Source: a bacterium (lineage in GTDB: Bacteria; Myxococcota_A; UBA9042). From it: DNA of 41,067 nt. Positions 1 to 15,596 of the stretch are shown piece after piece. The stretch covers positions 1-41,067 of the forward strand of contig JAUIAC010000019.1 in NCBI GenBank assembly GCA_030425545.1, in the 5' to 3' direction. Position 1 is the first letter of the stretch. Each line of letters opens with the position of its first letter. Position numbers and translations under genes: made by a program. The notes beneath the pieces were generated by a model, which was not told the DNA's origin, did not search any database, and worked only from the letters and a program-made list of their open reading frames with translations.

Positions 1-751
1 CGAGCGCGGCGACGCACTTGAGCGAGCCGTCCGGGTTGATGCCCTTGACCACCTCGCCCTTGTTCTTGCACTCGCCGGCGGGCGTCTTGATGCCCGTGAG
101 CTTGGAGCCGTCCCCCGCGAAGCTCGTCGCGGTCACGGTCGCCGCCGCCAGGTCCCCTGTGAAGGTGCCGTTCTTGGCCTTGAGGCTGTTGCCACCGAGG
201 TCCACATCCTTGTCGAACTTGAGCTCGGCCACCGTGACGCAGCCCGTGCAGGCGACGTCGCTGGCAGGGCCGCCCTTGGTGGCGCTCGCGGCGTAGTTGA
301 AGCCCATCTTCGCGGCGGAGAGCGCGCCGTTGGCCACCTGACCAGCGGTGATGCAGCCGGTGCAGGTGAGCTTGTCGGCCGCGCCCGCGTGGAGCGCGAA
401 GAGCGTCGCGTGCAGCTTGGTCCGCGCCAGCTCCGGGTCACTGCCGATCTTCACGCCGAGCCACTGCGCCTTGAGCGCGCCGAGCTTGGCGATGTCGATG
501 GCCTTGGTGGTGCCGAGCGCGTAGCTGAACTGCCCGCCCTTGAGCGTGACCTTGACCGGCCCCTCGGACCACGCCGCCGAGCCACCCGTGCTGGCGTCAT
601 ACACGCTGAAGGTGACGTCGTAGGTCCCGTCCGCAGCGGCGCCGCCGCCAGCCGACGTCATCGCGCCCTCAATGATCGCGGACGTAGGTGGAGCCGCAAA
701 CACGGGGCCCGCGACCACACTAACCAGGACAGCCAAGAGGTACTTCTTCAT
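1..751 (-). CDS. Secreted modular stalk protein, paralogue 3 (partial, 3' end outside window)
   Basis: The reading frame is open to the window edge, so only the first 250 codons are visible. It starts at an ATG preceded by CGGAG about 8 nt upstream. The N-terminus is a signal peptide (MKKYLLAVLV..., cleavage probably after VFA). It is followed by the stalk shared with the next two upstream genes: an IEGxMTSAGGGAAADGTYDV motif, two CTGC-T motifs near residues 125 and 163, and a GDGSKLTGIKTPAGEC motif. It is the last visible gene of a minus-strand operon, 58 nt after its neighbour. By analogy with its paralogues it should continue into a P-like domain and a C-terminal domain of its own. The first ~180 residues follow the 810-2888 paralogue, whereas the part after KFDKDVDLG follows the 2933-4999 paralogue, which suggests recombination. 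Its function is unknown; it is probably exported to the periplasm or cell surface. Confidence 0.85.
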   Translation of the reverse strand, partial: MKKYLLAVLVSVVAGPVFAAPPTSAIIEGAMTSAGGGAAADGTYDVTFSVYDASTGGSAAWSEGPVKVTLKGGQFSYALGTTKAIDIAKLGALKAQWLGVKIGSDPELARTKLHATLFALHAGAADKLTCTGCITAGQVANGALSAAKMGFNYAASATKGGPASDVACTGCVTVAELKFDKDVDLGGNSLKAKNGTFTGDLAAATVTATSFAGDGSKLTGIKTPAGECKNKGEVVKGINPDGSLKCVAAL

Positions 752-809
752 TGCGTTCACTCCGAGCGAACTGTTGCTATGCGTGGAGGTTGAATGCCAA
801 GCCAGACTG

Positions 810-2888
810 CTAGAGGTCCGACTGCATCCACACCTCGATCTCCGTCGCGCTCCAGTTGTAGGCGCCGCAGAAGTCGTTCCGGCACTGCGACGTACCGTAG
901 CCGCTGTAGCCGTTCGAGCTCGACTGGACGACACGGCAGGTGTAGTCGTGACCCAGGTTGCAGTAGCCGCCGGTCATGTTGCTGCTGTTGATGCACAGGT
1001 CGTGGCCACCGCCAAAGCAAGGCCCGTAGCCGCTGTGGTTGTAGATGCGGTCGTTGTACGAGAACGAGTTGCTGCTGCCGTTGTGGTAGTTCTTGTGGCT
1101 GTAGCGATGCCCGTTGGTGAGGCTGAACAAGAACGTGCCGCCGCAGCCGTAGCTGTAGGCGTTGTAGTAGGGCACCCAGGGGCACGCTGCGTAGCCGCCG
1201 AAGATCTTGTTGTGGTTGTTCTTGATCACCGTGACGGTCGGCCCCTTGTAGTTGCACTTGCTGTGGAAGGTGCTCGAGCTCGTGCCGTCCTTGCTCCGCT
1301 GGTAGCACAGCTTCCACTTCTTGAAGGGCGCGCCAATCCAGCCGTTGATGGTGACGCCGTCCTTGGGCGTGATGAGCTTCGACCCGGGGAACGCCACCGG
1401 GAAGCTGATCGGCACCCACCCGCCGGGCGTGCACACGCTCACGAGGTCGTTGGCGTAGCGCATCGCGCCGTAGCGGCTCTGGTCACAGACCGCCTTGTCG
1501 TCGCCCAGCTTCACGCTGGTGCCGAGCTGGAGCGGGCTGCTGACCTTGCCGTGGCCCTGGTCTTTGCCCCAGAGCTTGCCGGAGATGTAGACGTCTCCGT
1601 TCTGCGCGATCTTCTGGTTGCTGAGGGTCTTGAGCTTGACGCTGAAGTAGCTGATCCAGCCGTCCTTCTTCGTGCTCGTGTTGCAGTAGGCCGAGTTGCC
1701 CGGCGCCTGGGGCACGCAGAAGCTGGTGTCCTTGACCTTGAGCGTCCAGAGCCCCTGCGGGTTCGCGCCGACCCAGTCGGCGATCTTCTTGCCGGCGCCC
1801 TTCTGCTCCTGCGGCGGGTTCTTCGGGTTGAAGGTCGCGTCGTACTTCTTCTCGTCCTTCTTGCCGCAGGGGTCGCAGAGCACCCAGCCAGTCTTCTTGT
1901 CGTCCGGCGGGAGCAGGTAGATGGCGATCGTCGCCAGGTCCGTGTTCTCCACCTTCACGTTGATGTCGATCTCCTGCGCCGTCCCGATGTTCGGGAAGGT
2001 CAGGTTCCACACCGCGTCGACCCCCTGATTGTCCGGGATGAGCACCTTGTTGCCCGTGGCCGTCGCCGGGATCTCGTCGACGAACTGGTTGGCGATGAGG
2101 CCGTTGGAGATCTCGTCGATGCCGTCCTTGGGGAGCGCGGTCGGGTCCATGGCCTTCACGCACTTGAGCGAGCCGTCGGCGTTGATGCCCTTGACCACCT
2201 CGCCCGCAGTCGTGCACTCGCCAGCCGGAGTCTTCAGGCCGGTCAGCTTGGATCCGTCACCGACGAACTCCTGCGCCATGACCGTACCCGCGGCCGTGAT
2301 GTTGGTCGCCTTGAGGCTCTGCTTGCCCAGGTCCACGTCCTTGTCGAACTTGAGCTCAGCCACCGTCACGCAACCCGTGCAGGCGAGGTCGCTGGCGGGG
2401 CCGCCCTTGGTGGCACTGCCGGCGTAATTGAAGCCCATCTTCGCCGCGGAGAGCGCGCCGTTGGCCACCTGACCAGCCGTGATGCAGCCGGTGCACGTGA
2501 GCTTGTCGGCCGCGCCCGCATGGAGCGCGAAGAGCGTCGCGTGCAACTTCACGCGGGCGAGCTCCGGGTCCGCGCCGATCTTGACGCCGAGCCACTGAGC
2601 CTTGAGCGCACCAAGCTTGGCGATGTCGATGGTCTTGGTCGTGCCCAGCGCGTAGCTGAACTGGCCACCCTTCACGGCGACCTTGACCGGCCCCTCGGAC
2701 CACACTGCGTTGCCCCCGGAGCTCGCCTCATAGACGGAGAAGGTCACATCGTATGTGCCATCGGCTGCGGCGCCGCCCCCAGCGGAGGTCATGAGTCCTT
2801 CAATGACCGACGTGTTCGGCGGCGCCGCCCAAGCCGACATCGGCAAGAGCAGCAACGCCACGAGGGACACGAGCCGACGACGATTCAT
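810..2888 (-). CDS. Secreted modular protein: stalk, P-like domain and TLDc domain
   Basis: This 692-residue protein starts at the ATG in MNRRRLVSL, which has GGAGA 6 nt upstream; an in-frame ATG 12 nt earlier overlaps that ribosome site. A signal peptide ends near SAWA. The stalk shared with its paralogues spans about residues 25-225. Residues ~265-425 resemble a proprotein-convertase P domain (PF01483-like): IPDNQG, VKVENTDLATI, LLPPDDKKTGWVLCDPCG and NPQGLWTLKVKD. A short GAMRY...C..GGWVPI linker follows near 475-493. Residues ~505-688 match the TLDc domain: an LCYQRSKDG start, FHSKC, KGPTVTVIK, IFGGY, TFLFSLTNG, PCFGGGHDLCI and a terminal ATEIEVW. Extra cysteines fit an exported, disulfide-bonded form. 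TLDc proteins are known mainly from eukaryotes (OXR1, NCOA7, TBC1D24), some of which bind V-ATPase; no such role can be assumed here. The domain calls are from motif recognition, not a profile search. Confidence 0.9.
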   Translation of the reverse strand: MNRRRLVSLVALLLLPMSAWAAPPNTSVIEGLMTSAGGGAAADGTYDVTFSVYEASSGGNAVWSEGPVKVAVKGGQFSYALGTTKTIDIAKLGALKAQWLGVKIGADPELARVKLHATLFALHAGAADKLTCTGCITAGQVANGALSAAKMGFNYAGSATKGGPASDLACTGCVTVAELKFDKDVDLGKQSLKATNITAAGTVMAQEFVGDGSKLTGLKTPAGECTTAGEVVKGINADGSLKCVKAMDPTALPKDGIDEISNGLIANQFVDEIPATATGNKVLIPDNQGVDAVWNLTFPNIGTAQEIDINVKVENTDLATIAIYLLPPDDKKTGWVLCDPCGKKDEKKYDATFNPKNPPQEQKGAGKKIADWVGANPQGLWTLKVKDTSFCVPQAPGNSAYCNTSTKKDGWISYFSVKLKTLSNQKIAQNGDVYISGKLWGKDQGHGKVSSPLQLGTSVKLGDDKAVCDQSRYGAMRYANDLVSVCTPGGWVPISFPVAFPGSKLITPKDGVTINGWIGAPFKKWKLCYQRSKDGTSSSTFHSKCNYKGPTVTVIKNNHNKIFGGYAACPWVPYYNAYSYGCGGTFLFSLTNGHRYSHKNYHNGSSNSFSYNDRIYNHSGYGPCFGGGHDLCINSSNMTGGYCNLGHDYTCRVVQSSSNGYSGYGTSQCRNDFCGAYNWSATEIEVWMQSDL

Positions 2889-2932: not shown

Positions 2933-4999
2933 CTACTTGGTCCAGCCGTCAGGCTTGGTGTCGAGGTCGTCGACGAAGCTCAAGCCAGCCGGGAGCTTCA
3001 GGCAGTTGTTGTAGAAGGCGAGCACGTTCTGGCGGTAGTGGTTGCCGTTGTAGCCGTAGCCCGTGCCGCTGGTGGACACGAAGATCACCGTGCTGGTCCG
3101 GTCGGCCGGGATGCTCACGTCGGTCTTGCGGCTGCAGGTGGTCGAGCCGCAGTTGCCCTCCCAGAGGTGCTTGCCGTTGACCGCGGCGCTCGCGCGCTCC
3201 GACCAGCCCGAGTACGACGTGTAGTACCAGTACACCGGCCACGTGACGGCCTTCGAGGTCGTGTTGCGGACCCGGAAGAGCGCCATGGACACCTTGCCGT
3301 TGGTCGACGTGCGCTGCAGGTAGTTCTCCGCCCACACAGTGCTGTTCCACTTGGCGTAGCCCTTCTTCGAGAAGATGGTCATCAGCACGTCGGTGTTCGA
3401 AGACATGTGCTGTGCCTGGTAGTTGCCGTCGGTCCACTGCGAAGGGTGCACACCACCGAACATCGCCGAGTTGTTGCCGGCAAACCAGTTGTAGGGCCAC
3501 TGGTACGTGTCGAAGGCTGCCCAACGGTAGGTGGCCGGCTTGTGCACCGGGCCCCAACCCTGACCGTTGCAGTACTCCATGTACTTGCCAGCCTTGTTGT
3601 AGCGCAGCGCGCCCTCCTGGTCGGCGCCGCAGCTCGAGCTGCTCGTGCCGACCTGAATCTGACCGCTGACGTTCATGTTGCCGGCAACCGCCACCTTCTG
3701 GTTGGAGATGTACTGCATCTTGACCGACCAGTCGGCGATCCAACCGTCCTTGGCGTTGGTGGCGTCGCAGTAGACGGAGTTGCCCGGCGCCTGGGGCACG
3801 CAGAAGCTCACGTCCTTGACCTTCAGCGTCCACAGGCCCTGCGGGTTGGCGCCGATCCAGCCGTCGATCTTCTTGCCCGCGCCCTTCTGCTCCTTGGGGG
3901 GGTTGGCCTTGTTGTACGTCTTGTCGAACTTCTTCTCGTCCTTCTTGCCGCAGGGGTCGCACAGGACGTAGCCGGTCTTCTTGTCGTCCGGGGGCAGCAG
4001 GATCATCGAGATGTTGGACAGGTCGGTGTTCTCCACCTTCACGTTCACGTCGAGCGACTGCGCCGTGCCGATGTTCGGAAAGGTGATGTTGCTCACCGCG
4101 TCCGTGCCCTGGTTGTCCGGGATCGCCACCTTCTTCGTGGGCGCCGCGACGCTGTACACGAACTGGTTGGTCAGCAGGTTGTTGCTGATCTCGTTGAGGC
4201 CGTCAGCCGGCAGCGCGGTCGGGTCCAGCGCGGCGACACACTTGAGCGAGCCGTCGGCGTTGATGCCCTTGACCACCTCGCCCTTGTTCTTGCACTCGCC
4301 GCTGGGCGTCTTGATGCCGGTGAGCTTGGAGCCGTCGCCAGCGAAGCTCGTGGCCGTCACGGTGCCAGCGGCGACGTCGCCGGTGAAGGTGCCGTTCTTG
4401 GCCTTGATGCTGTTGCCGCCGAGGTCGACGTCCTTGTCGAACTTCAGCTCGTCGACGGTGACGCAGCCCGAGCAGGCCAGATCGCTCGCCGGGCCGCCCT
4501 TGGTCTTGCTCCCCGCGTAGTTGAACCCGAGCTTGGCAGCGGAGAGCGAACCGTTGGCGACCTGGTCTGCCGTGATGCAGCCCGTGCAGGTCAGCTTGTC
4601 AGCCGCCCCCGCGTGCAGCGCGAAGAGCGAGGCGTGGAGCTTGACCCGAGCGAGCTCCGGGTCTGCCCCGACCTTCAGCCCGAGCCACTGCGACTTCAGC
4701 GCGGCGAGCTTGGTGATGTCGAGCGTCTTGGTGGTGCCGAGGGCGTAGCTGAACTGCCCACCCTTGACGGCCACCTTGACCGGGCCCTCCGACCACGTGG
4801 CGTTGCCACCGCTGCCGGCCTCGTAGACCGAGAACACGACGTCGTACGTGCCGTCGGCCGCGGCGCCTCCGCCTGCGGAGGTCATCATGCCCTCGATGAG
4901 GGACGTGGTGGGCGCAGCCGCGAAGGAAGACCCCGCCGTCAGGGCGAAGCCGCCAAGCAGCGCTGCTGTCCACAGGAGCGAGCGATTAAACTGGTTCAT
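2933..4999 (-). CDS. Secreted modular protein: stalk, P-like domain and unrecognised C-terminal domain
   Basis: This 688-residue protein starts at the ATG of MNQFNRSLLW, with AGGAGAGG about 6 nt upstream; an in-frame ATG 39 nt earlier lacks such a site. A signal peptide (LLGGFALTAGSSFA) leads into the shared stalk, with paired CTGCIT and CSGCVT motifs and GDGSKLTGIKTPSGEC. A P-like domain follows: IPDNQGTDAVSNITFPN, KVENTDLSNISMILLPPDD and NPQGLWTLKVKDVSFC. Next comes a GALRYN...YCNGQGWGPV linker like those before the tips of other adhesin or fibre proteins. The last ~180 residues are rich in Trp and Tyr (RWAAFDTYQW, WYYTSYSGW), carry a Cys pair (NCGSTTC), and are unrelated to the TLDc tip of the paralogue; I do not recognise this domain. 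The gene lies 54 nt after the Cys-rich lipoprotein gene and 44 nt before the TLDc paralogue, so the three are probably co-transcribed. Confidence 0.9.
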   Translation of the reverse strand: MNQFNRSLLWTAALLGGFALTAGSSFAAAPTTSLIEGMMTSAGGGAAADGTYDVVFSVYEAGSGGNATWSEGPVKVAVKGGQFSYALGTTKTLDITKLAALKSQWLGLKVGADPELARVKLHASLFALHAGAADKLTCTGCITADQVANGSLSAAKLGFNYAGSKTKGGPASDLACSGCVTVDELKFDKDVDLGGNSIKAKNGTFTGDVAAGTVTATSFAGDGSKLTGIKTPSGECKNKGEVVKGINADGSLKCVAALDPTALPADGLNEISNNLLTNQFVYSVAAPTKKVAIPDNQGTDAVSNITFPNIGTAQSLDVNVKVENTDLSNISMILLPPDDKKTGYVLCDPCGKKDEKKFDKTYNKANPPKEQKGAGKKIDGWIGANPQGLWTLKVKDVSFCVPQAPGNSVYCDATNAKDGWIADWSVKMQYISNQKVAVAGNMNVSGQIQVGTSSSSCGADQEGALRYNKAGKYMEYCNGQGWGPVHKPATYRWAAFDTYQWPYNWFAGNNSAMFGGVHPSQWTDGNYQAQHMSSNTDVLMTIFSKKGYAKWNSTVWAENYLQRTSTNGKVSMALFRVRNTTSKAVTWPVYWYYTSYSGWSERASAAVNGKHLWEGNCGSTTCSRKTDVSIPADRTSTVIFVSTSGTGYGYNGNHYRQNVLAFYNNCLKLPAGLSFVDDLDTKPDGWTK

Positions 5000-5053: not shown

Positions 5054-8000
5054 TTACTTCTTGAGCCCGAGCAGCGTCGACAGCCACTGGTAGAAGCCAA
5101 AGTTGGCTGTGAGCTTTGTGCCCTTGGCGGTGCCCGCCGTGTTGCTGCCACCGGCGAAGGCACGAACCGTGACCTTGCCCGAGCTGCCCTTGACCACGGC
5201 GTTGCCCTGACGCGCCGAGAAGCCCGTCGGCGCGCAGCCCTCGTCTGTGACCCCACTGCAGTCGTTGTCCTTGCCGTCACAGGTCTCGTTCTTGGGCAGC
5301 ACGTCACCAACGCACTTGCCGAGCGAGCCGTCGGCGGCGCACTTCTGCACGCCGTCCTTGCACTCGCCGACGCCGCGCGTCTTGGCGTTGCCGGTGTAGC
5401 AGGACACCGACAGGTTGGTGTTGACCGCGTTGCTGCAGCCCTTGTCCTTGTCGCACTTGTCCTCGGTGCAGGGGTTGCCGTCGTTGCAGGTCAGCGCCTT
5501 GCCGCTCACGCAGGACCAGGTGCCACCGCTGTCCTTGGCGCAGGTGTCGCCCGAGGTGCAGGCGTTGCCGTCCGAGCACGACTGAATCAGGTCCTTGTAG
5601 GCGCACTTGCCGGTCTGCTTGTCGCAGGCGTCCGCGGTGCAGGGGTTGCCGTCGTCGCAGTCCTTGAGCGTGCCGGCCACGCACTTGCCCTGGTCACACT
5701 TGTCACCGGCGGTGCAGGCGTTGCCGTCCGCGTCGCAGGTGCCGCCCTGCGGGGTCTGCACGCAGCCCTTCTTCGGGTCGCAGCTGTCGGCGGTGCAGGG
5801 GTTGCCGTCGTCGCACTTCAGCAACGCACCCGACGCACACTTACCGCTCTTGCAGGTGTCCTGCGTGGTGCAGAGCGAGCCGTCGGCGTCGCAAGGCGTC
5901 CCGTCCGTCTTCACGTCCTGCGCGCACTTGCCCGACTTAATCTCGCACGAGGTCTTCAGGCAGAAGTTGTCCTGAGTGGTGTCGCACTTGACGATGGTCG
6001 CGGGGTTCACCTTGCACTCGTTGTTGGTGTCGCAGTAGAGCGTGCCGTTGCAGGCGTTGCCGTCTTCCTTGCTGGCGCAGTCGGAGTTCTTGGTGCACGC
6101 GCAGGTGTTGGTGCCGCTGACGCACTTGCCGGCGACGCAGGCGTCGTTCTGCGTGCAGCTGTTGCCGTCGTCGCAGCTCTTGTTCTGGAGCGCGGTGTTC
6201 TGGCAGCCGGCCTTCTTGTCGCAGGTGTCGAGCGTGCACTGGTTGTTGTCGTCGCAGTCCTTCGCGACGTTGATCGCCTGACCCTTGCAGATGCCGCCCT
6301 GGCAGGCGTCGCCCGAGGTGCACGCGTCGCCGTCGGAGCAGGCGCCCGACAGCGGCGTGTTCACGCAGCCGTTCTTCGGGTCGCAGCTGTCGCTGGTGCA
6401 GGCGTTGCTGTCGTCGCAGTCGAGGAGCTTGCCCGGCTTGCAGGCGCCGCTGGCGCAGGCGTCGCCGGAGGTGCAGACGTTGTCGTCGGCCTTACACGGC
6501 GTGCCGTCCTGCTCCTGTGCGATCTGGCACTTGCCGGTCTTGGCGTCGCACTTGTTCTTCTGACAGGTGCTGTTCACCGACGTGTCGCACTTGACCACCG
6601 TGCCGGGGTTGATCTTGCACTGGAAGGGCTGGCTGCTCTTGTCGCAGTAGAGCGTACCGTTGCACAGGTTGCCGTCCTCGGAGCCCGCGCAGTCCTTGTC
6701 CGCCGTGCAGCCGCAGGTGTTCACGCCCGACTGGCACGAGCCGTCCTTGCAGAAGTCGTTCTTCGTGCAGGCGTTGCCGTCGTCGCAGTTGGACGCGTTG
6801 GCGGGCAGGCTGACGCAGCCCTTCTGCGGGTTGCAGCTCTCACCCGTGCACGGGTTGTTGTCGTCGCACTTGGTCTTGACGTCGATGCTGGTGCCCGCGC
6901 ACGTCCCCTTGGAGCACGCGTCCTTGTCGGTGCACGCGTCGCCGTCGTCGCAGGCCTGGCCGTCGGTGACCGGGCTGAACACGCAGCCCTTGTCCTTGTC
7001 GCACTGGTCCTGGGTGCAGGGGTTCTTGTCATTGCACTTCACCGCGTTCGGCCCGACGCAGGTGTAGACGCCCGTGGTGGGCTCCTTGCCGCAGGCGTCG
7101 TTGAGGGTGCAGGCGTTGCCGTCGTCGCACTTGTCGACCACGGGCGCGTAAAGGCACTTGCCGCTGGTCTTGTCGCAGCTGTCGGTCGTGCACGGCTCCT
7201 TGTCGTCGCAGTCCTTGGCCTTGCCAGCCACGCAGGTGCCCGCCTGGCAGAGGTCCGAGACGGTGCAGAGGCTGCCGTCGGCGTCGCAGGGGTTGGTGTT
7301 CGGCTTGTGGGTGCAGCCCGACTTCGGGTCGCAGGCGTCGTCGGTGCAGCTGTTCTTGTCGTCGCAGTCGACCGGCGCGCCCTGGAGGCACTTGCCGTTC
7401 TTGCAGGCGTCGTCCTTGGTGCACACGTTGCCGTCGGCGTCGCAGGGCTTACCGGCGTTCTCCTGGGTGATCTCGCACTTGCCCGACTTCGCGTTGCAGG
7501 CGTTGGACTGGCACTCGTTGTTCAGCGACTTGTCGCAGTTGATGACGGTGCCCGGCTTGATCTCGCAGGTGAACTTCCCCTTGGCGGTGTTGCAGTAGAG
7601 CGTGCCGTTGCAGAGGTTGCCGTCTTCCTTGGTGGCGCAGTCGCTGTCCTTGGTGCAGCCACAGGTGTTGACCCCCGACTCGCACTTGCCGGCCTTGCAC
7701 GCGTCGTTGACGGTGCAGGTGTTGCCGTCGTCGCAGGAGCCGGCGTTCTTCGGCGCGTTGACGCAGCCCTTGTCGGCCTCGCACGAGTCGACGGTGCAGC
7801 TGTTGTCGTCGTCGCAGGACGCGGTGACGTCGATCGACAGACCGACGCACTTGCTGTCCTTGCAGCTGTCCTGGTTGGTGCACTTGCTGCCGTCGTCGCA
7901 GGGGCCGGTCGCGCCCTTGTGCAGGCAGCCCGACTTCGGGTCGCAGCTGTCGATGGTGCAGGTGTTCTTGTCGTCACAGTCGAGGACCTCGCCCTTGCAG

Positions 8001-9313
8001 ACGTCGCCCTTGCACTTCTCGTCCTTGCTGCAGGGGTTGCCGTCGTTGCAGACCTCGCCGTCCTTGCTCGTGTACTTGCACTTGCCGCCGTTGAGATCGC
8101 ACTTGCCGAGGATGCAGACGTCGCCGCTGTCGCACGACTTCTTGGCGCCGGCCTCGCACTTGCCGTCCTTGCACAGGTCGTTGGTGGTGCAGGGGTTGTC
8201 GTCGGCGTTGCAGGGCAAGCCGCTGCCTGGGGCGTACACGCAGCCCTTCTTCGGGTCACAGGTGTCGGTGGTGCAGGGGTTGCCGTCGTCGCAGGTCTTG
8301 GCGGCGCCAGCGACGCACTTGCCGTCCTTGCACTGGTCCTTCTCGGTGCACACCGAGCCGTCGGCGTCGCAAGCCTGGCCCGAGTCGTTGGTGTACTTGC
8401 AGCCGTCGGCGCCGCCACAGGCGTCCTTCGTGCAGGGGTTGCCGTCGTCGCAGGTGCCGTCGTCGGTCTGGCCGTTGCAGTCGTTGTCGACGCCGTCGCA
8501 GGTCTCGGTCGCCGGCTCCGGCGCGGAGCACGCGGTCAGGCCGCCGCCGTCGGGCGCGCCGGGCGTGCCGTCGGCCGCGCACTTGCGGCTGCCGAGGCAC
8601 TTGCCGCCGTTGCTGTGGGCCGCGTAGCAGTAGGTCTTCATCTCCGTGGCCATGGCGGCGTCGCTGCAGCCGCAGTCGTCGCCCTTGGGCAGCACGCACT
8701 GCTTGACGTTGGCGCCGTCGACGTCGGTGGCGTCTTCGCAGCCGTAGCCCGTCGGGCAGTCCGCGGCCGAGTCGCACTTGGTGCCGCAGTAGCCGCCGGC
8801 GTCACCGCGGTCGACGCACACCGCGCCGGCCGAGCCGACGCCCACGCACTGGTCGTTGGTCTCGCAGGGGTTGCAGATGGCGCCGAACTTCTTCGCGCAG
8901 ATCTTGTCCTTGTTGCTGCCCTTGCCCTGCACCTCGACGCAGGTCTCGTCGTCGGCGCAGGGGTCGTCGGCGCACGGCTTGGCGCAGGTCTTGCTGCCGC
9001 CGTTGTCGATGCAGTGACCGGAGTAGCACTCGTCGTCGGTCTTGCACACGCACGTCGGTGCGCCGGGGCAGACCGGGGCGGCGTCTGTCGAGGTGTCTTG
9101 CTCGACGTTGGTGTCGGGGCCAGCGTCTTCGCCAGTCACGGTGTCGGCGCCGCCGCCGACGTCCTCCGCGCCAGCGTCGGTCTGACCGGCGTCCGGGTCA
9201 GCAGCGACGTCGGTCGTCTCACCCTCGACGCCAGCGCCGTCCCCGCAGCCCATCGCCGTGAGCATCACCAAACACGCTGCCGCGCGGGCCGCATTCATCC
9301 AGATCATCCGCAT
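5054..9313 (-). CDS. Giant Cys-rich repeat lipoprotein with MopE-type motifs
   Basis: This 1419-residue protein starts at MRMIWMNAAR, with GGGAGAGG just upstream. A hydrophobic stretch ends in LTAMGC, a plausible though atypical lipobox, followed by a disordered Asp/Thr/Gly/Ala-rich linker to about residue 80. Residues ~80-260 hold irregular Cys-rich segments (CVCKTDDEC, CDSAADC). The rest carries about 30 units of two alternating forms, CDDxNPCTxDxCDPKxGC and CDADGxxCTxxDxCxxGKC. Three longer modules interrupt them (C-G/A-CTxDxDCxxxEDGNxCNGTLYC, then an NCD/KCD segment). Two CDGxDNDCxGxTD-G motifs, near residues 272-289 and 1343-1360, match the putative metal-binding MopE motif (PF11617-like). 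The final 59 residues lack Cys and may be a sorting or interaction tail. It is the first gene of the cluster with the three stalk proteins. A disulfide-rich, possibly metal-binding surface filament is an inference. Confidence 0.9.
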   Translation of the reverse strand: MRMIWMNAARAAACLVMLTAMGCGDGAGVEGETTDVAADPDAGQTDAGAEDVGGGADTVTGEDAGPDTNVEQDTSTDAAPVCPGAPTCVCKTDDECYSGHCIDNGGSKTCAKPCADDPCADDETCVEVQGKGSNKDKICAKKFGAICNPCETNDQCVGVGSAGAVCVDRGDAGGYCGTKCDSAADCPTGYGCEDATDVDGANVKQCVLPKGDDCGCSDAAMATEMKTYCYAAHSNGGKCLGSRKCAADGTPGAPDGGGLTACSAPEPATETCDGVDNDCNGQTDDGTCDDGNPCTKDACGGADGCKYTNDSGQACDADGSVCTEKDQCKDGKCVAGAAKTCDDGNPCTTDTCDPKKGCVYAPGSGLPCNADDNPCTTNDLCKDGKCEAGAKKSCDSGDVCILGKCDLNGGKCKYTSKDGEVCNDGNPCSKDEKCKGDVCKGEVLDCDDKNTCTIDSCDPKSGCLHKGATGPCDDGSKCTNQDSCKDSKCVGLSIDVTASCDDDNSCTVDSCEADKGCVNAPKNAGSCDDGNTCTVNDACKAGKCESGVNTCGCTKDSDCATKEDGNLCNGTLYCNTAKGKFTCEIKPGTVINCDKSLNNECQSNACNAKSGKCEITQENAGKPCDADGNVCTKDDACKNGKCLQGAPVDCDDKNSCTDDACDPKSGCTHKPNTNPCDADGSLCTVSDLCQAGTCVAGKAKDCDDKEPCTTDSCDKTSGKCLYAPVVDKCDDGNACTLNDACGKEPTTGVYTCVGPNAVKCNDKNPCTQDQCDKDKGCVFSPVTDGQACDDGDACTDKDACSKGTCAGTSIDVKTKCDDNNPCTGESCNPQKGCVSLPANASNCDDGNACTKNDFCKDGSCQSGVNTCGCTADKDCAGSEDGNLCNGTLYCDKSSQPFQCKINPGTVVKCDTSVNSTCQKNKCDAKTGKCQIAQEQDGTPCKADDNVCTSGDACASGACKPGKLLDCDDSNACTSDSCDPKNGCVNTPLSGACSDGDACTSGDACQGGICKGQAINVAKDCDDNNQCTLDTCDKKAGCQNTALQNKSCDDGNSCTQNDACVAGKCVSGTNTCACTKNSDCASKEDGNACNGTLYCDTNNECKVNPATIVKCDTTQDNFCLKTSCEIKSGKCAQDVKTDGTPCDADGSLCTTQDTCKSGKCASGALLKCDDGNPCTADSCDPKKGCVQTPQGGTCDADGNACTAGDKCDQGKCVAGTLKDCDDGNPCTADACDKQTGKCAYKDLIQSCSDGNACTSGDTCAKDSGGTWSCVSGKALTCNDGNPCTEDKCDKDKGCSNAVNTNLSVSCYTGNAKTRGVGECKDGVQKCAADGSLGKCVGDVLPKNETCDGKDNDCSGVTDEGCAPTGFSARQGNAVVKGSSGKVTVRAFAGGSNTAGTAKGTKLTANFGFYQWLSTLLGLKK

Positions 9314-9607
9314 GGTCCCTCTCCCTCTGCATCCCCATGTCACGTTCGTCTCCGCGTTGGAGTCACGGCTTGATCACGCAAGATGGGATGTCTGCCTTGG
9401 CACGATGCCGATTGCGCGGGGCACGGTCAAGCGGGTTGGCGACGGTCCGACAGCTCCCTCAAAGGGCATCGCGCTGGGCGTTGGCTCGGCGCGAGGCGTC
9501 CGTTGCGCCCGCACGATCTCGTACGGTCCGCCGTCCTGACCTGAGGCCCACGGGAATCGCGGGGGACAGACGAGACATGCGTGGCTCTGGCAGGGCGGAG
9601 CGTCGTG
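9314..9607. other. Intergenic spacer upstream of the Cys-rich/stalk operon
   Basis: This 294-nt stretch separates the stop of the SMB-containing lipoprotein gene from the start of the giant Cys-rich lipoprotein gene, both on the minus strand. No convincing coding region is seen. On the minus strand a TTGACC (9425-9430) lies 17 nt before a poor -10 candidate (9402-9407), so a separate promoter for the downstream operon is possible but weak. Confidence 0.4.
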
Positions 9608-11410
9608 CTATGACTTGCACACCGGCGGCGACGTGGTCGACGAGAGCGAGCACTTGGTGCCCCCGCTACACGTCTTGTACTGCTGCCAGGGCCCACCGGC
9701 CGGCTGGAGCTGGCTGCACTTCGACGCGTCGATGCCGGTGCAGCCCGGGTACAGGTCGCGCTTGTAGCCTGTGTTGCCCTCGCACTTGTACTGCGAGCTG
9801 AGCTTGAACGAGCTGCAGGGCGTGCCCAGGGGCTTGAGCTTGCCTGCGCCGACGTCACAGCAGACGCCCGAGGAGCAGCAGTCCGTGTCCTTCTCGATGG
9901 CGCAGCTCCCGTCGCCCTTGCACACCGCTTTTTCGCACGTGCTCGGGTTGACCTGGCCCACGCAGTCCGCGTCTTCCTTGCAACAGTTGGGCTTGGTCTT
10001 GCCGACGCACGTGCCGGTGGCGGAGCAGGTGGTCGAGATGGTGCACGCGTCGTCGTCGGAGCAGGTCGAGCCGGTCTTGGCCGAGGTCCACGTCGAGGGA
10101 GACGTGGCCGCGTTGCAGGTCTGGCATCCGAAGCTGCCGGGCTTGCTCGCGCCGCCTTGCACGCAGGCGCCGTCGATGACGCACCAACCCGTCTTGGGGG
10201 TGAGTGACGACGACGAGGTCGCGGGGTCGCAGACCGCGCAGTCGAGCTTCGGGTCGCCAGCGCCGGTGTCGTAGCAGACCCCGTCGACCGCGCACTTGCC
10301 GGCCACGCCGCTCCACGCCTTGGGGTTCTTGGACGGCTGACAGGTCGCGCAGGTCGGGTTCTTGGGGTCGCCCGCGCCGCCGGCGAAGCACTTGCCGTCG
10401 ATGTAGCAGCTGCCCGACGAGACGCTCCAGGTGTCGCCGCTCACGGCTGGGTTGCAGACCCGGCACTCGTCGGGCGCGGTCGTCGCCTTCTCGCCGCTCT
10501 TCTTGCAGAGGCCGTCCACGAGACACGTGCCGGCCTTGGCGGTCCAGGCGTTCTGGTCCTTGTCTGGCTGACACAGCATGCAGCCGCCGCTGCCTGGCTT
10601 GCTGGCGCCAGCGCCGTGGCACGCACCGTCGACGAGACACTTCACCGCCGAGAGCTTGTGCTTGCACTCGCCGGTGGCGGGGTCGCACGAGTCGATGGTG
10701 CAGTCGACGCCGTCGTCGCAGTCCTTCTGGACGTCGGTGCAGCTGCCCTGCAGGCACGTCGGCTTGATGCACTTGTTCTGGCCGGCGGCGCCGCACTCCG
10801 CGTCGCTGTTGCAGCAGCCGAAGAAGGGGACCTGCTTGCAGAACTTGGCGCCGCCCCGGGCGTCCTGGCAGGAGTCGGTGGTGCAGTCGTTGCCGTCGTC
10901 GCACTGGGCCTTGCTCTCGCAGCCGCACGCGCCCTGAAAGTCGGGGCAGCAGTCGTTGCGGCCGACGCAGGCGTGGTCGCAATGGCAGGGGTTGGTCTCG
11001 AGCTTCAGCCCGCACTTGCCTTCGCAGGACACGATCGCAGGAGCGGCGGTGTCTTCGCTGGCCGAGTCGCTCTGGCCGTCGGCCTGGGCCGACGCGTCGA
11101 CCGTGGCGTCGGTCGCGTCGGCGCCGGTCTCGACGCTGTCTTCGCCCGGCTGCGTGTCGTTGCTGAAGGTCCAGCCCCCGGTGTCGCCAGCGGCGTCAGC
11201 GACCTTGATGTCCAGCGTGTAGACCGGGCCGGCGTCCGTCCCAGAGTCCTCTTCGCCACAGGCGACGCCGAGCACCACCGCGGCGACGATGGCGACCCAG
11301 GGGCGCAACGCGCGGCGAGGTGCGCCCCGCAGAGAGGCCGGCGCGAGGGGGCCGTGGGTCGTGGTCGGGCGGGGCTGGCGTGGGTTGATTCGTGTCATAG
11401 CGCGGCGCAT
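9608..11410 (-). CDS. Cys-rich lipoprotein with somatomedin-B-like domain and five ~38-residue repeats
   Basis: This 600-residue protein starts at an ATG (MRRAMTRIN) preceded by GGAAGG at 6 nt; an alternative ATG four codons later (11398) would give a near-leaderless mRNA. A hydrophobic segment ends at VVLGVAC (residues ~38-51), a probable lipidation site, followed by an Asp/Thr/Ala-rich linker. Residues 129-162 contain eight cysteines in somatomedin-B order: CEGKC, CHCDHAC, CCPDF and a final C. Residues ~170-250 hold CDDGxDCTxDSC units. Residues 258-450 contain five ~38-residue repeats, each opening with C-x-(I/V)DGxC and containing C-x-x-C, at about 258, 296, 335, 373 and 410. A C-terminal Cys-rich domain follows (CCKEDADC, CCSSGVCCD). 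It lies upstream of the stalk operon and is probably part of the same surface system, but its function is unknown. Confidence 0.88.
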   Translation of the reverse strand: MRRAMTRINPRQPRPTTTHGPLAPASLRGAPRRALRPWVAIVAAVVLGVACGEEDSGTDAGPVYTLDIKVADAAGDTGGWTFSNDTQPGEDSVETGADATDATVDASAQADGQSDSASEDTAAPAIVSCEGKCGLKLETNPCHCDHACVGRNDCCPDFQGACGCESKAQCDDGNDCTTDSCQDARGGAKFCKQVPFFGCCNSDAECGAAGQNKCIKPTCLQGSCTDVQKDCDDGVDCTIDSCDPATGECKHKLSAVKCLVDGACHGAGASKPGSGGCMLCQPDKDQNAWTAKAGTCLVDGLCKKSGEKATTAPDECRVCNPAVSGDTWSVSSGSCYIDGKCFAGGAGDPKNPTCATCQPSKNPKAWSGVAGKCAVDGVCYDTGAGDPKLDCAVCDPATSSSSLTPKTGWCVIDGACVQGGASKPGSFGCQTCNAATSPSTWTSAKTGSTCSDDDACTISTTCSATGTCVGKTKPNCCKEDADCVGQVNPSTCEKAVCKGDGSCAIEKDTDCCSSGVCCDVGAGKLKPLGTPCSSFKLSSQYKCEGNTGYKRDLYPGCTGIDASKCSQLQPAGGPWQQYKTCSGGTKCSLSSTTSPPVCKS

Positions 11411-11436
11411 TGTACGCCTTCCGCGATGGCAGGCAA
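11409..11436 (-). promoter_or_regulatory. Candidate promoter of the SMB-containing lipoprotein gene
   Basis: On the minus strand TTGCCT (11431-11436) and TACAAT (11409-11414) are separated by 16 nt. Transcription would begin near 11402, just before the second in-frame ATG of the lipoprotein gene (11398). The element overlaps the proposed first codons of the divergent HupE/UreJ-like gene, so one of the two start calls may need shifting. Confidence 0.45.
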
Positions 11437-12943
11437 TGGAACCCGACTCAGGCGCTCTCGCTCCGGCGCATCCCAGCCCCGGGGCGGGCCGATTGCGGTG
11501 TGCGACGCACTCCGGGCGGCGCTCGGGCGGGAGCCGGGACGGCGGCGCCCCAACCGGGGGACGCGCCGTCCCCAGCAGCTCCTCCCGCTGGTCGCGGTGG
11601 CCACGCTGGCCATGGGAGCCTTGGGGGCACGCCCGGCGCAGGCGCACCTCATCGACGAGGTCGCCGAGTCGGTGGTCATCGCGCTGTCGACCCGCGACCG
11701 AGCGACGTTCGAGGCGCAGTTCGTCTTGCACACGGAGCGCCTCGAGGCCTACTTCGACCAAGCCGAGCAGCTGGGCATGGGCGTGGCGCGGAGCGACGCC
11801 GCGTTCGCCAGGCGACTCGCCGCGGGCTTCGCGTTCACGGGCTGCACGCTGGCGCCTGCGACGGCCGCAGTGGGCCGACCGGTGAAGGGCGGCGTGTTCC
11901 GTGCCTTCCGGCTCACCGTGCGATGCCCCAAGCCGGTGAGCGCGCTGCGGCTGGTGCGACGGGATCACGATCGAGCGCGTACCCGCACGACGCTGTACGT
12001 GACGATGCGCCAGGGCGAGGCGCCGGCCCGGCGGCTGCTGCTGCCGCCGCGCCTCGCGGCGCTCGACATCCCGCTCGACGGCGGTCGTGTGGACACGCAG
12101 ACGCCCCCGCGGGCGACCTCCGAGCCCCCCGCACCCACCCGGGTCCAAGCCACGCCAGGGGTGGCGCAAGGGGACCAGCGACGGGACACCGAGCGGCTCC
12201 AGCACCCGACCCCGGGAGACCCGGTGAGCGTGCGTGCGCTGCCCCGCCCTGGACCTCCCACAGCGCCCTGGCGCCGAGCGCTGCGGCCGCCGCCGTGGTC
12301 CATCGTCGCGCTCTGGGCCGACGCGGGGGCGCGGCACCTCGCCGGTGGGCTGGACCACCTGCTCTTTCTGACCGCGCTCGCGCTCGCCGCGCTGCGGTGG
12401 CGGCGCCTCGTGCTCGCGGCGGTCTGCTTCTCGGTTGGCCACCTGGTGACCATGGCCCTCGCCATCGCGTTCGCGTGGCCAAGCTCGCCGTGGGTGGAGT
12501 GCGCCATCGGGCTCAGCATCGCCTGGGCCGGCGTCGGAGCGCGCGCGCCAGGGCTGAGCCGGTCCGCGCTCGTCGGCGCCGCCGCCTTTGGCCTCGTGCA
12601 CGGGGCCGCCTTCGGCTCCGAGCTGCGTCACCTGATCGGCGGCAGCGAGGGGCTGGTGTGGCCGCTCCTGAGCTTTGGCGTGGGGCTGGATGTGGCGCAG
12701 ACCGTGTGGGTCACGGTGGGTTTCGCCCTGTGGACCCCGGTCCGACGCCGTGTGGCGACCACTCGGAGCGCCGAGGGCCCCGCCGTCGCGCAACCCACGA
12801 CCCAGGACGAACTGTCGCAGAGCGCGGACGCGCCCACGGTTGGCGCCTCGGACGCGCCCGGGTGGGCGCTCAGGCTCCAGCGGGGCGCAGCTGCCCTGCT
12901 GGTCGCGGCGGGCCTGCTCTACGGGCTGCGCGCGCTGCTGTAG
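11426..12943 (+). CDS. HupE/UreJ-like membrane protein with large exported N-terminal domain
   Basis: This is 505 residues long if it starts at the ATG of MAGNGTRLRR; a GTG at 11498 is a credible alternative that would shorten the positively charged leader. A hydrophobic signal (LLPLVAVATLAMGALGARPAQA) ends near residue 73. The following ~210 residues form a soluble exported domain with two Cys (TGCTLAP, TVRCPKP) and a Pro-rich linker. From residue ~290 come several membrane segments with HLAGGLDHLLFL (304-315), FSVGHLVTMALA and FGLVHGAAFGSEL. These match the histidine-bearing motifs of the HupE/UreJ family, which has been linked to nickel or cobalt transport for hydrogenase and urease. No hydrogenase or urease genes are in the window, so the metal link is unproven. 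It is divergent from the lipoprotein gene, with start codons only 15 nt apart. Confidence 0.82.
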   Translation: MAGNGTRLRRSRSGASQPRGGPIAVCDALRAALGREPGRRRPNRGTRRPQQLLPLVAVATLAMGALGARPAQAHLIDEVAESVVIALSTRDRATFEAQFVLHTERLEAYFDQAEQLGMGVARSDAAFARRLAAGFAFTGCTLAPATAAVGRPVKGGVFRAFRLTVRCPKPVSALRLVRRDHDRARTRTTLYVTMRQGEAPARRLLLPPRLAALDIPLDGGRVDTQTPPRATSEPPAPTRVQATPGVAQGDQRRDTERLQHPTPGDPVSVRALPRPGPPTAPWRRALRPPPWSIVALWADAGARHLAGGLDHLLFLTALALAALRWRRLVLAAVCFSVGHLVTMALAIAFAWPSSPWVECAIGLSIAWAGVGARAPGLSRSALVGAAAFGLVHGAAFGSELRHLIGGSEGLVWPLLSFGVGLDVAQTVWVTVGFALWTPVRRRVATTRSAEGPAVAQPTTQDELSQSADAPTVGASDAPGWALRLQRGAAALLVAAGLLYGLRALL

Positions 12944-12965
12944 ACCGCGCGCTGCGTGCGCCGTG

Positions 12966-15596
12966 TCAGTCGGCTGGGGCGATGCCGATGCGCAGGTCCC
13001 GGTCGCCCACGCCATGGGTCGGCGCGGCGTCGGCCGGCGCCTCCCAGGTCACCAGGTCGGCGCGGGCGGCCGCCCGCCAGTCTCGCTCGACCAGGGCGAT
13101 GTCCTCGCGCAGCGCGGCGTCGCCCGCCACGTAGATCGCGGCGAGCGGCTTTCCCAGCCCCATGCGCGCTTCGGTCTTCAGCTGACGGACTGCGGCCACC
13201 AGATCCAGCAGCAGCCCGCCAAGCGCGCCAGCCTGCTCGTCTACAACGCCACCGAAGACGTCCACCTCACCCGTGCGCTCGTCGAGCGGCCAGGGCGCGA
13301 CATGCACGCTCAGGGGCGCGTCGTCCGCCATGCGCGGCTTGAGCGCCCGCGTGTACAGCTCCTCGGTGATGAAGGGCAGCACCGGCGCGAAGAGGCGCAG
13401 CATGGCCCAGGTCCCGTAGAAGATGGTCGCGCGCGCCGCCTCGACCTGGGCCGGGTCCCACTGCTCCGGGTTGCGAAAGCGGTCCTTCACGATCTCGAGG
13501 TAGTTGTCGCACCAGTCGCGCCAGAACAGCTGCTCGGTCGCCCGCAGCGCCTTGTTGTACTCGTAGCCCTCGTAGGCCTCGGTAGCCTTGTGGACGGTCT
13601 CCAGGACGCGAGCTCGAATCCACCGGTCGGCCACCGTGGGCGCCTCGGTCGCGCCGCTGCTCGGGTCGTAGTCGCCGATGCTCATCATGGCGAAGCGGGT
13701 CGAGTTCCAGAGCTTGGTGAGCAGCCGCTTGCCGCCCTTCACGTCGTTCTCGAGGTAGCGCAGGTCGTGCCCGAGCGTCGCCCCGGCGGCCCAGTAGCGC
13801 AGCGAGTCGGCGCTGTACTTCTCGATGACGCCCTTGGGGTCGACGAAGTTGCCGAGCCGCTTGGACATCTTCTTGCCCTTCTTGTCGAGCCCCCAGCCGG
13901 AGATCATCACGTCGCGCCACGGCAGGGCGTCGGTGTGCATGTGACTCTTGGCGACCGTGTAAAAGAGCCAGGTCCGGATGATCTCGAAGGCCTGAACGCG
14001 CACGCCCATGGGGTAGATCCCAGGCCGCGGCTGGAGATCCGGCGTCTCCGCACCGGAGTCCTTGTCCCAGAAGGCCCAGTTGGCGTTGATGAGCGGCGTC
14101 AGTGACGACGTCATCCAAGTGTCCATGACGTCTTCCTCGGCCACGAGCTCGACGCCGTCGGGGACCTGGGCCTTCACCGAAGGCGGCGGTGCGTCGACCA
14201 TGGGATCGAGCGGCAGGTCGGCGGCCGTGGGCAGCACCGCCGCGCCGGTGTCCTGGCGGTACCACACCGGGAAGGGCACGCCGTAGAAGCGCTGGCGACT
14301 GATGTTCCAGTCCCACTTCAGCCCGTCGACCCAGTGCTCGTAGCGGTCCTTCATGTAGGGCGGGTGCCAACGAAGCTCACGGCCGCGCGCCAGCAGCTCG
14401 TCCTTGATGTCCACCAGCTTCACGAACCACTGGGGCACGACCTGGATCTCGATGGGCGTGCTGCTGCGCTCGGACACGGAGGCGCGGCTCACGTTCTCGG
14501 TCACGTCGAGCAGGTACCCGTGCGCCTCAAGCAGCTCCTTCGCCGCCAGCCGGGCCTCGGGGAGCTTGCTGCCCTTGGCCAGCACGTGCACGCGCTGACC
14601 GTGCAACGAGGGCAGCTCGGGGGTGTCCATGCGGCCGTCGGGGCCGATGATGAGCTGCGTGTCCAGCTTGTGGGTGCGCCACTTGATGATGTCTTCCTGG
14701 TCACCAAAGGTGCACACCATCATCAGCCCGGTGCCGAACTCCGGGTCCACAGCGTCGTCGCGGATCAACGGGACGGTGCGAAACTCCGCCTCGGAGCCGT
14801 CCGCGCGCAGGTTCGACAGCGGCACCTTGAAGCGCACCGACCCGTCCGCCGCGAAGCGGGTGTCGTCCGGGTGGCAGGCGAGCGCCACGCACGCCGTCAC
14901 GAGCTCCGGGCGGGTGGTGTCGATCAGCCCGGAGCCCTCAGTGTCCGCCCGGTCGAAGCGGAGCTGATGCAGGGGCCGGTCGATCTCCGGCCCAGGCTCG
15001 GTGTCCGCCTGCGCGAGGGCGGTCTGCATGCGCGGATCCCACAGGATCGGGTCGGCGCGGCGCTCGATGCGGCCCTTGGCCACCAGGTCCAAGAACGACT
15101 TCTGCGCGTGCTCGACCGCGCGCGGCGCGATGGTCGAGTAGGTCATCCGCCAGTCGACCGAGAGGCCCAGGCTGCGCCAGAGCTGCTCGTAGACCGCCGC
15201 CCCGCCGCGGGTCTCCGCCAGGCAGAGGTCGACAAACTCTTTGCGGGTCGCGTTGCCCTTGTGCTTCTTGTACTTCTTCTCGACGTAGCGCTCTGTGGGC
15301 AGGCCGTTGTCGTCGAAGCCCATGGGGTAGAACACCTCGTAGCCACGCATGCGCTTGAAGCGAATGACGAACTCCGCCTGGCTGTAGCTCATGGCGTGGC
15401 CGACGTGCAGGTGGGCGGCCGAGACGTAGGGCGGGGGCGTGTCGATGCTGAACGTGCGACCGGCGGCCGCTGCGTCGCTCGACGGGTCGTAGCGGTAGAT
15501 GCCGTCTTCGTCCCACTGCGTGGTCCAGCGGGGCTCCACGGCGCGGAAGTCGTAGTTCTTGGGGAGCTCGGCGTCGGACGTGCGCGGGTCGGTCAT
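12966..15596 (-). CDS. valS: Valyl-tRNA synthetase, archaeal/rickettsial sequence type
   Basis: This 876-residue class I synthetase charges tRNA-Val. It starts at MTDPRTSDAELPKNYDF, with GGAG 5 nt upstream; the frame extends further but without a ribosome site. The HIGH motif is HLHVGH (62-67) and KMSKR is intact near 576-580. The editing domain has IDTTRPELVTACVALACHPDD-like residues. The stretch YPMGFDDNGLPTERYVEKK and the KHKGNATRKEF insert are characteristic of archaeal and rickettsial ValRS rather than the usual bacterial NVTGSDHAG-type sequence. The protein also stops short of the long C-terminal coiled-coil arm of bacterial enzymes. The assignment to ValRS rather than IleRS or LeuRS rests on these motifs and the overall pattern. 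A promoter is visible 130-160 nt upstream. It converges with the HupE/UreJ-like gene, with a 22-nt gap and no obvious terminator. Confidence 0.93.
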   Translation of the reverse strand: MTDPRTSDAELPKNYDFRAVEPRWTTQWDEDGIYRYDPSSDAAAAGRTFSIDTPPPYVSAAHLHVGHAMSYSQAEFVIRFKRMRGYEVFYPMGFDDNGLPTERYVEKKYKKHKGNATRKEFVDLCLAETRGGAAVYEQLWRSLGLSVDWRMTYSTIAPRAVEHAQKSFLDLVAKGRIERRADPILWDPRMQTALAQADTEPGPEIDRPLHQLRFDRADTEGSGLIDTTRPELVTACVALACHPDDTRFAADGSVRFKVPLSNLRADGSEAEFRTVPLIRDDAVDPEFGTGLMMVCTFGDQEDIIKWRTHKLDTQLIIGPDGRMDTPELPSLHGQRVHVLAKGSKLPEARLAAKELLEAHGYLLDVTENVSRASVSERSSTPIEIQVVPQWFVKLVDIKDELLARGRELRWHPPYMKDRYEHWVDGLKWDWNISRQRFYGVPFPVWYRQDTGAAVLPTAADLPLDPMVDAPPPSVKAQVPDGVELVAEEDVMDTWMTSSLTPLINANWAFWDKDSGAETPDLQPRPGIYPMGVRVQAFEIIRTWLFYTVAKSHMHTDALPWRDVMISGWGLDKKGKKMSKRLGNFVDPKGVIEKYSADSLRYWAAGATLGHDLRYLENDVKGGKRLLTKLWNSTRFAMMSIGDYDPSSGATEAPTVADRWIRARVLETVHKATEAYEGYEYNKALRATEQLFWRDWCDNYLEIVKDRFRNPEQWDPAQVEAARATIFYGTWAMLRLFAPVLPFITEELYTRALKPRMADDAPLSVHVAPWPLDERTGEVDVFGGVVDEQAGALGGLLLDLVAAVRQLKTEARMGLGKPLAAIYVAGDAALREDIALVERDWRAAARADLVTWEAPADAAPTHGVGDRDLRIGIAPAD

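Follow-up and report, generated by a model that had tools for sequence, protein, structure and literature searches.

The window analysed here is an entire contig of 41,067 nucleotides, belonging to a myxobacterial-type metagenome-assembled genome of 7.4 Mb (945 contigs, 92% complete). The contig is bacterial, because genes for ValRS, SLT, CYTH and PfkB proteins lie on it together with the gene studied here. This gene (810..2888, minus strand, defined by translation and Pfam searches) encodes a 692-residue fibre protein that consists of a signal peptide, a stalk, a P-like domain, a neck and a C-terminal TLDc tip, all read from the minus strand. The signal peptide MNRRRLVSLVALLLLPMSAWA, of about 22 residues (MNRRRLVSLVALLLLPMSAWAA; 2823..2888), is plain in the sequence of the product, as the first-pass annotation of this DNA had seen. 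It is followed by the N-terminal beta domain of the stalk (2514..2822), delimited by profile searches and a structural model, and by a jelly roll like the proprotein convertase P-domain (1617..2087, residues about 268-424), recognised by PF01483 and by a fold match to furin. A neck with the pattern C...GAMRY...C...GGW (1395..1526) then joins the stalk to the TLDc tip (813..1376, residues 505-692), which was identified by PF07534 and by a fold match to NCOA7.

Two tandem siblings lie beside this gene on the same strand. One (2933..4999) has the same stalk (68% amino acid identity over 513 residues) and a tip that we call tipX, which belongs to no Pfam family, is unrelated to TLDc and is of the same type as the tip of another sibling in this genome, L091. 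The other (2..766, 79% amino acid identity) is present as N-terminal stalk only, its tip falling beyond the contig end. Adjoining the fibre genes is a putative lipoprotein of 1429 residues with 13 Dicty_CTDC repeats (5054-9343, minus strand), after which comes a Somatomedin B protein (9608-13015).

The TLDc tip and its cysteines

The first-pass annotation had read a TLDc domain at 825-1380 from a series of motifs and had proposed to check it with PF07534 and by structure prediction. All of these motifs are present in the minus-strand translation of 810-2888, and the span was right, the domain lying at about 1376-813. PF07534 matches residues 522-687 of the product (828-1325, minus strand) with 87 bits and an E-value of 1.9e-24, the curated cut-off being 24.5 bits. 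A phmmer search of the PDB with the window protein finds the TLDc domain of NCOA7 (8.7e-07), and a profile built from relatives of the tip matches mEAK7, NCOA7, OXR2, Skywalker and yeast Oxr1. In the AlphaFold2 model of the tip (28 related sequences, pLDDT 89.6), the fold is also that of TLDc: the model superposes on the TLDc domain of human NCOA7 over 154 residues with an rmsd of 1.7 (Z 20.7-20.8), the top eleven rows of the fold search are all TLDc proteins or V1-bound Rtc5p, and every listed TLDc structure scores Z 13.6 or more, while the next unrelated fold scores Z 4.0. Thus, the Pfam match and the fold alignment to NCOA7 settle both the fold and the family of the tip, and the C-terminus of the window protein is a TLDc domain. 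We make no claim of kinship between TLDc and fibrinogen-like or ficolin folds, for which Z is about 3 and within noise.

The tip contains 10 cysteines, which bears out the earlier remark that the domain has cysteines added to it. Two pairs, C24/C41 and C147/C165 (window tip numbering), are constant or nearly so in TLDc domains of the myxobacterial type, and a further pair, C120/C128, is present in the window tip and was seen in none of its nearest relatives. In fact, the number of cysteines is even in 33 of 34 myxobacterial-type copies, which fits an oxidising compartment, and this sequence pattern suggests that the tip cysteines form disulphides. In several Bacteroidota copies the first pair is reduced to its FHxxC cysteine, and the copies with PEP-CTERM tails mostly have no such cysteines. 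The aligned eukaryotic TLDc proteins have neither paired cysteines nor an FHxxC motif, whereas the window tip has both.

Stalk relatives and tip exchange

The P-like domain, also proposed in the first-pass annotation, is real. The window's own match to PF01483 (18.8-19.5 bits) is below the cut-off of 21, but the family matches 14 of 19 stalk relatives at E <= 0.1 (best E 1.2e-05) and the stalk model superposes on the P-domain of furin over 120 residues with an rmsd of 3.1 (Z 11.6). This model, a monomer prediction of the 479 residues before the tip, is confident only in the N-terminal beta domain and in residues 260-400, where the furin match falls, while residues 96 to 200 are modelled poorly; a stalk profile searched against the PDB gave E-values of 0.06-0.11 at best. 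The N-terminal domain of the stalk is common to about 20 paralogues in the window genome and recurs in each of the 22 family genomes that were searched, with 1-127 matches each. Two genomes of the family have very large repertoires, with 127 (G256) and 71 (G044) matches to this domain.

What the first-pass annotation missed, and what is the main context of the gene, is that it belongs to a family of fibres whose tips have been swapped. Within its own genome, the stalk (residues 22-498) has 25 matches, in about 20 genes and with up to 88% amino acid identity, and the C-termini of these siblings differ. Their tips match CTHRC1_C (140 bits), COLFI (38-44 bits) and Fibrinogen_C (up to 28 bits); others match C1q or Xlink weakly, or are of types that match no family. 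The strong CTHRC1 C-terminal domain, named for an animal secreted protein, is the tip of L096 (G000:C10), and the fibrillar collagen C-terminal domain COLFI is matched by the tips of L097, L098 and L106, two of which also match Fibrinogen_C.

The exchange can be followed at the DNA level in the nearest sibling, L091. The two genes are 87% identical over 1333 bp (gene positions 60-1392); past nucleotide 1392, within or just before the end of the neck, identity falls to about 45% in the tip. The stalk tree pairs the window with L091 (100/100). The tip tree places the window tip with L033-L036, which come from a different genus within the family (99/98), yet the stalks of the three of these that the stalk tree covers (L033, L034 and L036) are on its opposite side (100/100) and share about 40% identity. 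Because the tip of L091 is unrelated and the two trees conflict with strong support, the tip was swapped, and the window gene is a chimera of two ancestries, one for the stalk and one for the tip. That close siblings bear entirely different end domains suggests that TLDc is an interchangeable recognition head. We rejected a diversity-generating retroelement as a source of tip variation: Tyr, Asn, Ser and Gly are abundant in the tip, but there is no RVT_1 match in the window genome (92% complete).

The first-pass annotation had also noted that TLDc is known mostly from eukaryotic proteins and their protist relatives. Export is supported, but TLDc on an exported bacterial protein is no singular case: PF07534 occurs at 34 places in the phylum, spread over 17 of 377 genomes and lying in fibres or other proteins of several domains, and exported TLDc proteins occur in at least seven phyla (Myxococcota, Bacteroidota, Planctomycetota, Verrucomicrobiota, Acidobacteriota, Pseudomonadota and Armatimonadota) and have a curated NCBIfam model. 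TLDc is present in KSB1 too. The wider scan selects for a GPT(F/W)G..H pattern and is therefore a sample rather than a census; a crude signal-peptide rule classes 35 of its 44 TLDc proteins as exported, and PEP-CTERM tails are frequent among them.

TLDc domains are also found inside other domains. The window genome has two further copies, both in one open reading frame of 6080 residues (G000:C770:44497-62737; L031 and L032), which contains many Cys-rich and metal-binding-like repeats and, in a row, long repeated stretches that resemble beta-propellers. One of these copies splits a C-type lectin domain, and the second may lie in a MAM-like jelly roll, which Pfam matches weakly (15.5-15.8 bits). 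At the first, the left half of the lectin domain alone covers positions 3-78 of Lectin_C, and excising TLDc extends the match to positions 3-107 and raises it from 49.4 to 55.0 bits. In total, TLDc lies within C-type lectin domains at six loci, and its excision restores a full-length Lectin_C match, from 44.6 to 59.1 bits at L009 and from 47.6 to 51.5, 41.3 to 58.7, 48.3 to 61.4 and 44.4 to 59.2 bits at the remaining four. The family has many unsplit relatives of the TLDc-bearing lectin domain.

Relation to known systems

The system closest in its working is the mosaic adhesive trimer (MAT) fibres of Bdellovibrio, a multigene set of exported fibres in which the N-terminus is constant and the C-terminal recognition tips are swapped; these tips include C-type lectin and TNF-like folds, and one of them binds particular prey glycans (PMC10769870). 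The window fibre likewise has a constant N-terminus and exchangeable tips across paralogues, and paralogous fibres with exchanged tips, a trait of the MAT type, are found in the window genome. The window stalk differs from MAT in its P-like domain, and the family's match to the MAT N-domain is sub-threshold: the window stalk has no hit to NF053851 (Bdello_MAT_N), its siblings reach at most 19.3 bits and the best match in the genome is 23.9 bits, against a curated cut-off of 60. We therefore regard the window fibre as MAT-like in its working but not established as MAT, and full membership was rejected on this cut-off. The main text of the Bdellovibrio MAT paper makes no mention of TLDc (PMC10769870).

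An exported bacterial TLDc is already known to curators as NF038124 (PEP_CTERM_TLD_A), "PEP_CTERM-anchored TLD domain-containing protein" in NCBIfam, whose members have a signal peptide like the window protein. This model matches residues 500-656 of the window protein with 68.4 bits, below its cut-off of 100. Its proteins are short, end in a PEP-CTERM tail and mostly lack the myxobacterial cysteines; the window protein, in contrast, combines a long stalk with a P-domain, and ends in MQSDL without PEP-CTERM. OXR1, NCOA7, mEAK7 and Skywalker/TBC1D24 share the domain family and the fold of the window tip (Z 17-21) but, unlike it, are cytosolic proteins that bind the V-ATPase and are not exported. 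The TLDc literature that we surveyed has eukaryotic subjects, a search for "PEP-CTERM" and "TLD domain" together found no paper, and OXR1 function has been stated to be absent from prokaryotes (PMC3462732). Bacterial CTHRC1 C-terminal domains have already been reported (PMC7058181), while the tip-swapped fibre setting and the insertion of TLDc into lectin domains look new.

TLDc has been studied, in animals and yeast, almost only as a cytosolic partner of the V-ATPase. A large, exported and Cys-rich bacterial branch carried on tip-swapped fibres means that the fold is able to do something else, probably binding. The bacterial tips are small soluble domains with which the recognition partners of a TLDc surface could be probed, and the family, with its CTHRC1-, COLFI-, fibrinogen- and TLDc-type heads and as many as 127 stalk matches in one genome, amounts to a natural library of tips that are candidates for recognition.

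Proposed function and origin

Export, the P-domain and the added cysteines together argue for a role outside the cytosol, as had been proposed from the sequence. We consider it probable that the window gene encodes an exported surface fibre with TLDc as its recognition or adhesion tip, rather than a V-ATPase partner. We envision that the fibre, once exported, would stand on the cell surface and would be trimeric, its N-terminal stalk and P-like jelly roll bearing an exchangeable C-terminal recognition tip that in the window copy would be a disulphide-stabilised TLDc. The ligand of this tip would be on prey, on neighbouring cells or on the substrate, and the conserved FH and GHD residues may lie at the binding site. 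Against this reading, solved TLDc structures are, to our knowledge, not trimeric lectins.

TLDc could instead be a passive folding or trimer cap without a ligand of its own, as COLFI and C1q-like domains are in chain assembly. COLFI and CTHRC1_C, both found among the sibling tips, relate to collagen chain trimerisation. In fact, the CTHRC1 C-terminal domain has been modelled as a C1q-like trimer (PMC7058181). Such diverse and unrelated tips would not be needed for a cap, however, and TLDc also occurs within lectin domains and, in L042, L043 and L073, as two or three tandem copies on one protein, where it cannot cap a fibre. We thus find this explanation unlikely.

A role for the exported TLDc as an enzyme or as a redox-protective envelope domain, comparable to the oxidation resistance conferred by OXR1, we regard as distinctly improbable. 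We know of no TLDc domain with an established enzyme activity, which counts against the first form of this proposal. On its side, across 28 bacterial copies H38, D126 and E181 are invariant and H125 is kept in at least 90%, and OXR1 suppresses mutagenesis in E. coli (PMC3462732). But TLDc takes its place among recognition-type domains, as a tip that can be swapped, and also occurs within C-type lectin domains, and Ncoa7 E938, which belongs to a conserved part of the domain, is a buried residue with an effect on folding (PMC8608904), all of which speaks against this role.

A recent arrival from a protist, which the first-pass annotation had allowed for, or contaminating eukaryotic sequence, is highly improbable even though TLDc is best known from eukaryotes. 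The gene shares its contig with ValRS, SLT, CYTH and PfkB genes, the tip forms one protein with a bacterial stalk, the N-domain of which occurs in 22 of 22 relatives, and GC3 of the tip (0.952) equals that of the host, as seen in the stalk (0.933) and ValRS (0.927). Moreover, in a tree built without protist sequences, the tip lies inside a bacterial clade with the four relatives from another genus (99/98). A viral origin was rejected as well, the viral contig scan having returned no relative of the gene.

The V1 part of the pump faces the cytoplasm and is the partner of TLDc, and by its signal peptide and paired cysteines the window protein would be exported, so that regulation of a V/A-type ATPase in the manner of OXR1, NCOA7 and mEAK7 is very unlikely, to the point of being negligible, in keeping with the earlier proposal of a role unlike the V-ATPase-linked one. 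It is indeed V1 that TLDc proteins bind (PMC9263379). In favour of such regulation, a V/A-ATPase D subunit (127 bits) is present in the genome, and Ncoa7 G815 and S817, which are needed for V-ATPase binding (PMC8608904), appear to align with the glycine and serine of DGTS in the window tip, but these are better read as fold residues.

The swappable tip and the lectin insert also allow a tentative scenario, to which we give little weight: TLDc may originally have been a bacterial extracytoplasmic recognition module, with V-ATPase binding in eukaryotes a later reuse. The named relatives of the window TLDc are mostly from metagenome-assembled genomes labelled "Myxococcales" or "Deltaproteobacteria". 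The TLDc stretches L051 (CALGHC010000648) and L052 (CALENB010000551) come from two assemblies assigned to different genera, yet have the same contig coordinates and the same domain sequences, so that a single contig was probably binned into both.
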